From Deltaproteobacteria bacterium (GTDB lineage Bacteria; Desulfobacterota; Desulfobaccia; Desulfobaccales; Desulfobaccaceae): 64,000 bases of DNA. Position 1 is the stretch's first letter, and each line of letters starts with the position of its first letter. The stretch lies in assembly GCA_019309545.1 (NCBI GenBank), contig JAFDGA010000013.1, positions 1-64,000 of the forward strand. The letters are read 5' to 3'. The notes beneath the pieces were generated by a model. The model did no database searches. It saw only the letters and a program-made list of their open reading frames with translations, and was not told the origin of the DNA. Positions 22,751 through 50,886 of the stretch are shown in pieces. The translations under genes and the position numbers were made by a program.

Positions 22751-23908
22751 TTATGATTGACCTATCAGGGTTTGGGCGAATTTTCGGGCCCAATCATCCG
22801 CTTCCAAGACTTGCGCCAGGGAAGTGAGTGGCTCAACCTGATGTGCCTCCATGGTCTGAGCGATAATCCGGAAAATGCCCAAAAATGGCAATTTTTCGGC
22901 CAGAAACGCGGCCACCGCTACTTCATTAGCGGCGTTGAGCACGGCTGGCGCGGTACCCCCGGCCCGGGCCGCCTCATAGGCCAACCCCAGGCTGGGAAAC
23001 CGTTCCAGGTCCGGGGGTTCAAAAGTGAGTTGCCCGATTTGAAATAAATCTAAAGGCGGCAAATCCAGCGGTAGCCGCCGCGGATAGGACAGTGCATAAG
23101 CAATCGGGACCCGCATATCGGGGATGCCTAACTGGGCAATCACCGAGCCGTCGATGTACTCCACCAGGGAATGGATGATGCTTTGCGGGTGGATATGGAC
23201 CTCAATGCACTCGGGCGGCAACTGGAACAAAACACTGGCCTCGATCACCTCCAACCCCTTATTCATCATGGTGGCGGAATCAATGGTGATCTTGGGTCCC
23301 ATGCTCCAGTTGGGATGGTCGAGGGCCTCCGCCGAAGTAACGGTCGCCAACTGCTCCAGGGAGTGACGTAAGAACGGCCCGCCCGAGGCGGTCAGCCAGA
23401 GACGCCGGATGTCTTGGGCCCGATGTCCTTGAAGCGACTGAAAAATAGCGCTATGTTCGCTGTCAATGGGGATGATCGTTGCACCCTGCTGCCGGGCCGT
23501 GGCCATTACCAAAGGGCCGGCCATCACTAATGTCTCTTTGTTGGCCAGGGCCACTGAGATGCCGTGCTCCAGGGCTGCCAGGGTGGGTTGCAGACCCACG
23601 GCTCCCACCATGGCCGAGACCAGAAGCTGGTTGTGCGGGTCCGTGGCCAGGGCCACGGCCCCCTCGGTGCCGACCATGATTTCTGGGCCAGGGGTGTAGG
23701 GCAAGAGTTCTGCCAGGGTCTGGGCGGTATCGGCATCCTGGACCGAGACCCGGGACGGCCGGAAGCGGCGGATCTGTTCGGCCAATAGCCGGGCATTTTT
23801 CCCCGCGCCCAAACCTACCACCGTAAATTCCGCCGGGTACTGGGCCGCCACTGCCAGGACATTCTGGCCGATCGACCCGGTAGACCCCAGAATTGCCAGA
23901 TTTTTCAA
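22751..23908 (-). CDS. dxr: 1-deoxy-D-xylulose 5-phosphate reductoisomerase
   Basis: Second step of the MEP pathway, converting DXP to MEP with NADPH. The 385-aa protein has the GSTGSIGQN dinucleotide-binding motif (residues 8-16), VALANKETLVMAG, IPIDSEHSAIFQ (metal and substrate site) and TASGGPF, all in the family order. It links to the IspH-UbiA fusion at 49147 as another step of the same pathway. It lies between cdsA and rseP. Confidence 0.97.
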   Translation of the reverse strand: MKNLAILGSTGSIGQNVLAVAAQYPAEFTVVGLGAGKNARLLAEQIRRFRPSRVSVQDADTAQTLAELLPYTPGPEIMVGTEGAVALATDPHNQLLVSAMVGAVGLQPTLAALEHGISVALANKETLVMAGPLVMATARQQGATIIPIDSEHSAIFQSLQGHRAQDIRRLWLTASGGPFLRHSLEQLATVTSAEALDHPNWSMGPKITIDSATMMNKGLEVIEASVLFQLPPECIEVHIHPQSIIHSLVEYIDGSVIAQLGIPDMRVPIAYALSYPRRLPLDLPPLDLFQIGQLTFEPPDLERFPSLGLAYEAARAGGTAPAVLNAANEVAVAAFLAEKLPFLGIFRIIAQTMEAHQVEPLTSLAQVLEADDWARKFAQTLIGQS

Positions 23909-47306: not shown

Positions 47307-47330
47307 ACTACCCGGTCCCTTGTCTGTCAC

Positions 47331-47350
47331 ACCCGCTACGGGGTTTTTTT
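47331..47350 (+). terminator. Rho-independent terminator, short
   Basis: Stem CCCG/CGGG (47332-47342, loop CTA) followed by a run of seven T (47344-47350). It sits 25 bases after the membrane-protein stop and just before the phosphorylase ATG. Confidence 0.6.
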
Positions 47351-47358
47351 ATGCAATT

Positions 47359-48144
47359 ATGTGCCCTCCGGCCTCATCTCCCATTAGCTTTGGTCTGGTT
47401 GCCGCCCTGAAGTGTGAAGTCCGGCCTTTTTTGCGGCGGGCGGCAAGTGTCCGGCGGCTAACTGGACTTCCGGCCGCCTGGCGCTTTCAATTGGGAGAAT
47501 GGTCTGGAATCGCGGCGGTATCAGGTATGGGGGCTGACAAGGCCCGCGCCACCGCTCGTCGCCTGATCGAGATTTATTCCCCCCGTCTGTTAATTTCCCT
47601 GGGATACGGGGGGGCGGTGAAACCTGACTTGGCCCCGGGGACCGTAGTACTGGGGCAGGAATATCGGCATTATGATCCTGGCGGACCGACCCTGACCCCG
47701 TTGTGCCCGCTCTGGGCCGGTCCGTCCATCCAGGAGTTGGTAACCCATCTGCAGGCGGCTGGCCTCCCGGCCGCGGCCGCAGTCCTGGTTACCACTCCCC
47801 GGGTCATTGTCAAACACCGGGAAGGGGCGCCGCTGCTGTTTCTGTCTAACCCCGTCCTCGACCTGGAGACGGCCGCGGTGGCGGCCCTGGCCCAGGCCTC
47901 CGAAATTCCGTTTTTGGGGCTGCGAACCATTACCGATACCGGGGGAGAGGAGATTCCCGATTTTATCATGGCCTGGACTTTGACAGTGGGCGTACCATAT
48001 TGGCGGCTGGTCTGGCGCTTGGTCTTGAGCAAACCGACGCATTGGCCTTACCTGACCAGGATGTGGCATCGCTCCCGGTGGGCCAGCCATCATCTGGCCC
48101 TGGCCCTGACTACGCTCCTGCCTGATCTGGGTCCGGCGGTTTAA
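47359..48144 (+). CDS. Nucleoside phosphorylase-superfamily protein (HpnG-like)
   Basis: A protein of about 261 aa of the PNP/UDP phosphorylase fold: GLVAALKCEVRPFLRRA at the start, VSGMGADKARATARRL, LISLGYGGAVKPDLAPGTVVL, and LDLETAAVAALAQAS (the VDMExxAVA-type motif). Proteins of this kind include MTA/SAH nucleosidases and the hopanoid-associated phosphorylase HpnG, which releases adenine from adenosylhopane. The start is unclear: the open frame begins at 47320, but ATG 47359 fits the fold. It is followed convergently by the CruF-like gene. Confidence 0.78.
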   Translation: MCPPASSPISFGLVAALKCEVRPFLRRAASVRRLTGLPAAWRFQLGEWSGIAAVSGMGADKARATARRLIEIYSPRLLISLGYGGAVKPDLAPGTVVLGQEYRHYDPGGPTLTPLCPLWAGPSIQELVTHLQAAGLPAAAAVLVTTPRVIVKHREGAPLLFLSNPVLDLETAAVAALAQASEIPFLGLRTITDTGGEEIPDFIMAWTLTVGVPYWRLVWRLVLSKPTHWPYLTRMWHRSRWASHHLALALTTLLPDLGPAV

Positions 48145-48178: not shown

Positions 48179-48970
48179 TTAATGGCGGTTAAGCAGATTT
48201 ACGGCCAATAAGGTAACAAACGGTAGGTAAATAAAGCAGCCCACCAGGCCCAATAAAGTTTCCCCGATATAAAAGGTGATAACCAGATTAAAGGCTAAGA
48301 TGGCAAAGTACAGGCCCGGTCCCAGCCATTCCCGACCAGGGAAGTCGATTTTGCCCCAATTCATCAGGGGCATCCCATCCGGCAGGCGGGTTACCCGCTG
48401 CAAAACTCCGATCAGGACAAATCCCATGACCAGCCAACCGAGGAAATTGCTCAGAGTAATGCCGAAATAGAGGCCAGGCTCAGGATAACCGTAGATTTGC
48501 CCCAAAAACCACCGATACCCCCGCAGTGCCAACGGATCAATAACTATATCCAGGGTCATGAATAACACGCTGGCCAGAACCAAAGTCCGGCCGGAGCCGC
48601 TCCGCGCCTTATCTCCCCCCAGGTAAAAGCCGCCAGGGCGGGAACGCCCCGGGTTCAGAGCCAGGAGTGCCAGAGTGTAGCTGGCATAAGACAGAAACAC
48701 ATAGGACAGGGAGTCCATGAACGGTACTCCCAGCACCCAGAGTTCCTGCCCCCGGGTGGCTTCAATATAGATATAACGGCCATAAGGCAAGCCGGTGTGG
48801 ATGGAAGAAAGTTCTGAACTCCAGGCCAGCAGATAGCCCACTAGCAGATAGATCAAGGCCCGTCCCAATCCCAGATGCCAGGTGGCTAACAGGAGGTAGA
48901 CGGCCAGGAAAATAAACACATATGGCCGTAAAGCCAGGGTCCCCCACAGCAGTCCCCAAAAACCCGCCAT
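48179..48970 (-). CDS. CruF-like carotenoid biosynthesis membrane protein (DUF422)
   Basis: A 263-aa integral membrane protein with about seven helices. It resembles the PF04240 family (CruF, C50 carotenoid hydratase): the SELSSIHTGLPYGRYIYI segment, VPFMDSLSYVFLSYASYTLA and MTLDIVIDPLALRGYRWF are typical. ATG 48970 has an ideal AGGAGG site. It lies between the phosphorylase and the IspH-UbiA fusion. Which carotenoid or isoprenoid it acts on is not known. Confidence 0.8.
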   Translation of the reverse strand: MAGFWGLLWGTLALRPYVFIFLAVYLLLATWHLGLGRALIYLLVGYLLAWSSELSSIHTGLPYGRYIYIEATRGQELWVLGVPFMDSLSYVFLSYASYTLALLALNPGRSRPGGFYLGGDKARSGSGRTLVLASVLFMTLDIVIDPLALRGYRWFLGQIYGYPEPGLYFGITLSNFLGWLVMGFVLIGVLQRVTRLPDGMPLMNWGKIDFPGREWLGPGLYFAILAFNLVITFYIGETLLGLVGCFIYLPFVTLLAVNLLNRH

Positions 48971-49146
48971 CACCGATGACCTCCTGAGATCAATCCCATA
49001 GCAGAATCAGTCCCCAACGTCAATGGAGGGCTGGGCTGCCAGATTACCCTTTGGCAAAAAAATCACTATCATGCCCCTGTTGACAGGGTGCATAAAAATT
49101 GTCAAGCTTAAGAAGCAATACACCTCTAGGTAAATGGAGGCAAGGC

Positions 49147-50886
49147 TTGAGAGTTATTCTGGCCCAGACCGCGGGCTTCTGCATGGGGGTGAAGCGGGCC
49201 ATGGAGATGGTCCTCAATGCCATCGATCGCAAACCATGCAAGATTTACACCTATGGGCCGCTGATCCATAATCCCCAGGTATTGGAACTGCTGGAGGAGC
49301 GGGGCATTTCTATCCTGAAACCACACCAGACCGTATCTCAGGGGCTGGTAGTGATTCGGGCTCACGGTATCCCCCCCCAGGAGCGGGAAGAACTGCAAAA
49401 GGCCGGCTGTCAGATTATTGATGCCACCTGTCCAAGGGTGGCCAGGGTGCAGGCCATTATCCGGCGATGGGCCAAAAAGGGCTATGCCACCATTATTGTC
49501 GGAGATCAGGATCATCCCGAGGTCTTGGGCCTCAAAGGCCACACCCAGGGCCGCGGTTATATAGTCTCTACCGCCGCAGATGTGGCCCAACTACCGGAGC
49601 TGGACCAAGTCATCGTGGTCGCCCAGACCACTCAGAGTCATGCCCTTTTTGATCAACGGGTAGAGGAAATCAAGGCCCGTTTCCCTCAGGCCCAGATCTA
49701 TAATACCATCTGTGACGCGACCGCCAACCGTCAGGCCGAAGCGCAAAAGCTGGCTCAAGAAGTGGAGGCCATCGTGGTGGTGGGTGGCCGGGCCAGTGGC
49801 AATACCCAACGATTGGTAGAAGTTTCCCAGGCTACCGGGGTCCCTACTTATCACATCGAAACCGAGAGTGAATTGGACCTGAAGGAGATGAGCCGCTACC
49901 AGACCGTGGGAGTGACGGCGGGGGCCTCCACCCCCCACTGGCTGATCAGCAATGTGGTCACCACCCTGAAACATGCCTGGGCCTTCCGACAAGGATCGGT
50001 GGGCCAACTGCTGTTCCGGGGCTGGCGGTTTCTGCTCAAATCCAACCTCTATGTCGCCCTGGGGGCTGGATCACTTAGTTATACCTCTTCCTTGCTTCAG
50101 GATGTGGAGCCCCTGTTTAAATATTTTTTTGTGGCCTTCTTCTATATTTACGCCATGCATATCCTGAATCACTTCACCGACGAAGCCAGCAAACTCAATG
50201 ACCCGGTACAGACCATGTTCTATGGCCGCCACCGCCAGTTTCTGTTGACCACCGGCGCGGCCTCGGCGGTCATTGCCCTGATTATCGGTCTGCTTTTAGG
50301 AGTGGTGGCCTTTTTGTTCATTTCCCTCATGACCATCCTGGGGATAATCTACAATCTGAAAATCTTCCCGGTGGGCCGCGCTGCAGTGTTCCGCATGGCC
50401 CGGCTCAAGGAAATCCCCGGCTCCAAGACCATCTTCACCGCCGTCGCCTGGGGGGTCCTGGCCGCCCTGATTCCGGTGGTCAGCTCGGGGCGGGGCTTTA
50501 CTCTGGCCACCGTTTTTGCCTTTCTGTTGGTGGCCGGGCTGATCTTTATCCGCTCCGGCCTGTTTGAAATCCTGGCCCTGGAAGGCGATCGGGTGGTGGG
50601 CAAGGAGACCCTGGCCATTGCCCTGGGCAAGGAGAAGACATTGGGGTTGCTCTATATCCTGGCCCTGGGCCTGCTGTTAACGCTATATTTCGCCACCGCC
50701 GCCAAGCTTCTCCCCTCCCTGGGTTATGCCCTGCTCATCTGTGTGTTTTACGCTCTGGCCTATCTCACCCTGTACCGCCAGGGCTATGGGGAGAATACGT
50801 TGCTTCTGGAAAGCCTGGTGGAGGGCAATATGGTCCTGGCCGGGTTGATTGCCTTTTTGTGGGATCCGTATTACGGGCCGTTTTAA
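49147..50886 (+). CDS. ispH: IspH-UbiA fusion (HMBPP reductase with prenyltransferase domain)
   Basis: Residues 1-290 are a complete IspH: the FeS-ligand cysteines lie in TAGFCMGVKRAM, DATCPRVARVQ and NTICDATANRQ, with IRAHGIPP and VTAGASTPHW. From about 300 to 579 a UbiA-type prenyltransferase follows in the same frame, with about eight membrane helices, ILNHFTDEASKLNDP as the first Asp-rich motif and LEGDRVVGKETLAIALG as the second. There is no stop between the domains. TTG at 49147 has GGAGG at good spacing; a further upstream frame lacks support. It makes IPP/DMAPP and may prenylate a membrane acceptor. Confidence 0.9.
   Translation: MRVILAQTAGFCMGVKRAMEMVLNAIDRKPCKIYTYGPLIHNPQVLELLEERGISILKPHQTVSQGLVVIRAHGIPPQEREELQKAGCQIIDATCPRVARVQAIIRRWAKKGYATIIVGDQDHPEVLGLKGHTQGRGYIVSTAADVAQLPELDQVIVVAQTTQSHALFDQRVEEIKARFPQAQIYNTICDATANRQAEAQKLAQEVEAIVVVGGRASGNTQRLVEVSQATGVPTYHIETESELDLKEMSRYQTVGVTAGASTPHWLISNVVTTLKHAWAFRQGSVGQLLFRGWRFLLKSNLYVALGAGSLSYTSSLLQDVEPLFKYFFVAFFYIYAMHILNHFTDEASKLNDPVQTMFYGRHRQFLLTTGAASAVIALIIGLLLGVVAFLFISLMTILGIIYNLKIFPVGRAAVFRMARLKEIPGSKTIFTAVAWGVLAALIPVVSSGRGFTLATVFAFLLVAGLIFIRSGLFEILALEGDRVVGKETLAIALGKEKTLGLLYILALGLLLTLYFATAAKLLPSLGYALLICVFYALAYLTLYRQGYGENTLLLESLVEGNMVLAGLIAFLWDPYYGPF

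Follow-up and report, generated by a model that had tools for sequence, protein, structure and literature searches.

Fusions of IspH, the HMBPP reductase at the end of the MEP pathway, with a C-terminal UbiA-type domain were described by Rao et al. (Chem Sci 2015, PMC4746011), who reported 47 of these "Rosetta stone" proteins in sulfate reducers. The passages of that paper devoted to the class predict a membrane domain of nine helices, assigned to PT_UbiA_5 (CDD), a family of unknown function, and propose that it localises IspH at the membrane, with a high local concentration of IPP and DMAPP. The protein of Desulfobacca acetoxidans was among those for which expression was attempted there, the product being mostly truncated and insoluble. 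In the literature searched, IspH-UbiA is mentioned only there and in one paper citing that report, and no later functional study was found. Another enlarged form, the IspH-RPS1 fusion of Clostridia and other bacteria, likewise carries IspH at its N terminus and likewise occurs in anaerobes, but its partner consists of ribosomal S1 repeats and not of UbiA. In the UbiA superfamily, the metal ligands of AfUbiA are N68, D72, D198, and D202, and Y139 is near-universal; the equivalent ligands are essential in EcMenA, where mutation of the D198 equivalent abolished or nearly abolished the activity (PMC4106721).

The ispH-ubiA gene of the window (the whole stretch of 64,000 nucleotides that was analysed) belongs to a genome of 2.43 Mb, 99% complete and in 96 contigs, whose closest named relatives are Desulfobacca MAGs, which places it in the Desulfobaccales (Desulfobacterota). 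Since the class was described by Rao et al., the fusion as such is already known. The passages of that paper on the class share with the present case the domain order, with IspH followed by a C-terminal UbiA domain in one frame, the sulfate-reducing taxa (a lifestyle read here from the names of the relatives), Desulfobacca acetoxidans, PT_UbiA_5, and the idea of tethering and local supply. What is added here is the altered metal site with its lineage pattern, the selection acting on the UbiA half, a wider distribution, and a case from gene content against a quinone role. We take the best explanation of the locus to be an active IspH tethered to a functional UbiA enzyme that is non-canonical and does not serve quinones, and hold this reading of the published class to be probable by a modest degree.

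The frame runs without interruption from a TTG codon at 49147 to a stop codon at 50884-50886 and encodes 579 residues (Table 1). TTG 49147 is the position at which the start codons of homologues align; a longer alternative, from TTG 49099 in the same frame, finds no support in those start codons.

Table 1. Features of the ispH-ubiA locus, with positions in the window and residue numbers of the fusion protein.
Feature	Position	Strand	Basis
ispH-ubiA fusion gene, 579 aa + stop	49147..50886	+	ORF, Pfam domains, conservation in relatives
Shine-Dalgarno-like GGAG, 7 bases 5' of the TTG start	49136..49139	+	sequence
IspH (HMBPP reductase) domain, aa 1-278	49147..49980	+	LYTB, TIGR00216, fold, A. aeolicus IspH match
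Cys12, Fe-S ligand	49180..49182	+	invariant in 56/56 fusions
Cys95, Fe-S ligand	49429..49431	+	invariant in 56/56 fusions
Cys189, Fe-S ligand	49711..49713	+	invariant in 56/56 fusions
UbiA-fold membrane domain, aa 294-579	50026..50883	+	PF01040, AlphaFold model, 4od4/4tq3 superposition
Degenerate first Asp motif, N341-H-F-T-D345	50167..50181	+	AfUbiA N68/D72 equivalents retained
Tyr402, AfUbiA Tyr139 equivalent	50350..50352	+	Tyr in 55/56
Altered second Asp motif, E474-I-L-A477-L-E479-G-D481	50566..50589	+	A477 = D198 position, D481 = D202
Neighbour, head-to-head with the fusion: PF04240 (CruF-like) membrane protein	48179..48973	-	family match, synteny
Neighbour: HpnG/MqnB-like nucleoside phosphorylase family protein	47320..48144	+	family match, synteny

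An earlier note on this DNA had read a single frame joining IspH to a UbiA-type domain and had proposed a domain search for the extent of its conservation. That frame is colinear in the order, in the phylum, and in the named loci, and the search places the fusion in 27 of the 29 genomes of Desulfobaccales, full-length or cut by a contig end, and in about 150 of the 395 sampled genomes of the phylum; the UbiA half is matched in 151 of the latter, and the frame that holds it is, with few exceptions, as long as a fusion. Among the best 80 named loci of a contig scan, full fusions, or fusions with an undetermined base, make up 74, and the other six break off where their contig ends; one (L168) is labelled Zixibacteria, and the remainder are Desulfobacterota-type MAGs. 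Apart from those cut at contig ends, no unfused relative of the UbiA half was found among these 80 loci, and none is obvious among the phylum matches listed. Such conservation across order, phylum, and named loci rules out a joining of ispH and ubiA by chance or by a frameshift. An artefact of assembly or annotation that merged two genes has a negligible probability: independent assemblies, single-contig genomes included, carry the identical colinear fusion, and nothing was found in favour of this explanation beyond the fact that the TTG used is not the first start in the frame.

IspH is present in 372 of the 395 phylum genomes, and those with the fusion almost always have one IspH; the exceptions include G159, with a second, stand-alone one, and G289, with two matches. 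The stand-alone IspH that G159 carries in addition to the fusion (L216, contig C153) is of a different type. In a tree of the IspH domain, a branch with support 93/83 separates 51 fusions from 19 stand-alone IspHs; the one row labelled as stand-alone among the fusions (L232) comes from a fetched region that ended before the UbiA half, its frame being 560 residues long. The tree is consistent with a single origin of the fusion and does not amount to strong proof of it.

The IspH half is matched over its full length by Pfam LYTB (residues 3-275, E 5.5e-95, 318.1 bits) and by TIGR00216, which scores 294.5 bits, above its cut-off of 187.85; A. aeolicus IspH aligns with it nearly end to end (E 5.2e-68). 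PRK00087, which bears on the comparison with IspH-RPS1, scores here over residues 1-276 only. In the AlphaFold model, residues 1-279 superpose on E. coli IspH with Z 33.9 and an rmsd of 1.6 over 279 residues. The fold, the three Cys ligands of the cluster (Table 1), and the active-site Glu and His are shared with the stand-alone enzymes of E. coli and A. aeolicus, which, unlike the fusion, have no C-terminal membrane domain. Residues E125, H41, H123, S217, N219, and S261 are also unchanged in all 56 aligned fusions. This half is the sole IspH of the 99% complete genome, and Dxr, an earlier enzyme of the MEP pathway, is encoded in the window as well (22751-23908, minus strand). Because of the conserved residues, the domain and fold matches, and the single copy, we infer that the IspH half is active as an HMBPP reductase; it would then be the only one of the cell, making IPP and DMAPP with the use of its 4Fe-4S cluster.

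The UbiA half is matched by Pfam UbiA (PF01040) over residues 310-545, with E 2.3e-9 and 37.3 bits against a cut-off of 34.2. The AlphaFold model, which was built from the 56-sequence alignment and has a mean pLDDT of 85.9, consists in this part of nine long transmembrane-type helices preceded by a short amphipathic one. Its pTM of 0.66 makes the mutual placement of the two domains unreliable, and an argument from their orientation was dropped on account of this value and of the missing error matrix. The closest fold is that of ApUbiA (4od4; Z 20.0, rmsd 3.0 over 257 residues; Foldseek, VIA-align), followed by AfUbiA (4tq3; Z 19.3-19.4) and then by the archaeal DGGGP synthase and UBIAD1. At the sequence level, the profile of the UbiA half matched no solved UbiA among the PDB sequences, so that this half represents a divergent branch; it has about 12% identity to AfUbiA and ApUbiA, from which the IspH domain is absent. 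The top NCBIfam match, PRK13591, reaches 36.3 bits, below its cut-off of 238, and no MqnP or MenA model matched over its cut-off: with the quinone prenyltransferases MqnP and MenA the fused domain has the UbiA superfamily in common but fits none of their models. Both domain assignments of the earlier note, a complete HMBPP reductase with all FeS cysteines and a polytopic UbiA-type domain, are thus sound.

The same is not true of its claim that both Asp-rich motifs are present. In the alignment, N68, D72, D198, D202, and Y139 of AfUbiA correspond to N341, D345, A477, D481, and Y402, respectively; four of these five residues are kept in the fusion, and Ala stands at the D198 equivalent. The mapping of A477 relies on the DxxxDxxxG register of UbiA and MenA sequences, which we take to run through D481-x-x-x-G485 here, and not on a superposed structure. 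The first motif, compared with NDxxDxxxD, is reduced to NHFTD, with the Asp after the Asn and the third Asp missing, and the second, compared with DxxxD, reads A477-L-E-G-D481, its first, essential Asp being replaced by Ala. Conservation of these motifs, on which the earlier note had let its reading depend, is therefore partial: D481, N341, and D345 are kept, and the Asp at position 477 is lost. The passages of Rao et al. on the class (PMC4746011) state two DxxxD repeats, from which the present protein differs in both motifs.

Position 477 is Ala in every aligned member of Desulfobaccales (11/11, and 14/14 in a second set) and Asp in most other lineages; at position 479, Desulfobaccales have Glu where almost all other fusions have Gln. 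D345, in turn, is replaced by Gly in 25 of the 56 fusions, in much of the family outside Desulfobaccales. The metal site thus appears to have changed differently in different lineages, with A477 and E479 in Desulfobaccales in place of the usual Asp and Gln.

These substitutions bear on whether the UbiA half is an enzyme at all. It might lack catalytic activity and serve as a membrane anchor or scaffold, keeping IspH close to electron donors in the membrane or to the prenyl synthases, an alternative that we regard as unlikely, yet as the most serious one. It would account for the Gly and Ala replacements and for the lack of a match to any solved UbiA, and all four canonical ligands are kept in only 4 of the 56 fusions (A3 set) and in 14 of the 51 of a more diverse set. 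The rest of the site does not look abandoned: N341 is kept in 50/56 fusions, Y402 in 55/56, and H338, R469, and D481 in 56/56 each, the GKET block is conserved, and most fusions are short of exactly one canonical ligand, unlike the drift expected of a dead site. Within the genus, dN/dS is 0.06-0.08 (about 0.07) for the UbiA half and 0.04-0.06 for the IspH half, figures that are rough since some dS values are high; values this low place the UbiA half under strong purifying selection. According to the preferred explanation, the tethered functional enzyme, the UbiA-fold half would hold IspH at the inner face of the cytoplasmic membrane and would itself be a prenyl-diphosphate-binding enzyme, neither a quinone prenyltransferase nor a dead remnant.

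Over a third of the phylum genomes sampled carry, joined to an essential enzyme, a UbiA domain whose metal site is altered. We can speculate that it represents a new type of UbiA-fold enzyme, with a rearranged carboxylate metal site, that makes an undescribed isoprenoid of Desulfobacterota, in the strongest form of the idea in the hopanoid synthesis of Desulfobaccales, although we consider this doubtful. Identification of its product would name a missing isoprenoid of these anaerobic sulfate reducers and would tell whether a rearranged metal site is compatible with UbiA chemistry.

The usual donors of UbiA enzymes are polyprenyl diphosphates made by other enzymes, not IPP or DMAPP, and the fusion by itself is therefore no demonstration of direct channelling. 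The earlier note had linked the end of the MEP pathway with the use of a prenyl diphosphate and had suggested channelling at the membrane. The link between the pathway and UbiA is correct and evolutionarily stable, and a local supply of IPP and DMAPP, proposed already in 2015, is a plausible advantage of the fusion. Ordinary prenyl transfer, on the other hand, cannot be assumed, since the lost ligand is the equivalent of AfUbiA D198, whose counterpart is essential in EcMenA (PMC4106721). An ordinary UbiA prenyltransferase fed by channelling from IspH, to which the conserved Rosetta-stone pair and the UbiA fold would lend themselves, is for these reasons rather improbable, and the gene content of the genome argues against it as well.

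Three further UbiA genes are found in this genome: an MqnP-like polyprenyltransferase adjacent to UbiX, a MenA scoring over its cut-off, and a weak MenA-like one. With separate MqnP-like and MenA genes, quinone prenylation has no need of the fusion. Neighbours of the fusion vary by family, and no acceptor-pathway gene consistently adjoins it among the diverse loci compared, where neighbours were named from the sequence, with family models applied to only some of them. In L080 and L082, an operon-like run comprises an IspA-type prenyl synthase, dxs, tlyA, and then ispH-ubiA. In 10 of 40 diverse loci, L087 and L089 among them, the fusion is followed on its own strand by a conserved gene for a GT2 glycosyltransferase. 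MqnB-like genes occur near the fusion in L103 and L089 (G099 and G384), accompanied in L103 by an MqnD-like one, head-to-head with the fusion.

In Desulfobaccales, the synteny around the fusion takes in, besides the CruF-like and HpnG/MqnB-like genes (Table 1), a porin-like gene and a further downstream gene with no evident link. Since these are equally syntenic, the adjacency of the first two is weak evidence of function. A futalosine or menaquinone link through the HpnG/MqnB-like neighbour was rejected, TIGR03664 scoring 20 bits in this genome against a cut-off of 124.7, as was a C50-carotenoid (lycopene elongase) link of the CruF-like neighbour in the order, where there is no phytoene synthase. 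The same PF04240 subfamily occurs with HpnA-, HpnH-, and HpnG-type genes in relatives (L209:5740-6618, L210:5409-6350, L211:4889-5836), family f91 included, and on some contigs next to a squalene-hopene cyclase (SHC) gene, which suggests a hopanoid rather than a carotenoid role for the subfamily. In G074 (L208:1233-10485), the fusion adjoins a cluster of carotenoid type, which comprises a PF00494 synthase, a pair of desaturase-like genes, an acyltransferase, a GT2, and a CruF-like gene.

The hopanoid link of these neighbours raises a further explanation, in which the UbiA half has a part in the hopanoid or squalene metabolism of Desulfobaccales; it could, for instance, be an enzyme that forms squalene and has gone unrecognised. 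Its starting point is that, of the 29 genomes of the order, 28 have SHC and 28 have HpnH over its cut-off, yet none has a PF00494 squalene/phytoene synthase; a literature search found nothing on squalene synthesis in these bacteria. Outside the order, 28 of the 38 strongly SHC-positive genomes of the phylum sample are likewise without a PF00494 match, and 21 of these 28 are without the fusion, which is thus no general answer to the missing squalene synthase; many fusion genomes, moreover, are without SHC. This co-occurrence, together with the synteny that reaches genes of no evident relation, speaks against the fusion as the missing squalene synthase and makes a hopanoid function of the UbiA half very improbable. 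In Desulfobaccales, SHC, HpnA, and HpnH are clustered, as on contig C8 of G000 (L241:6717-10815).
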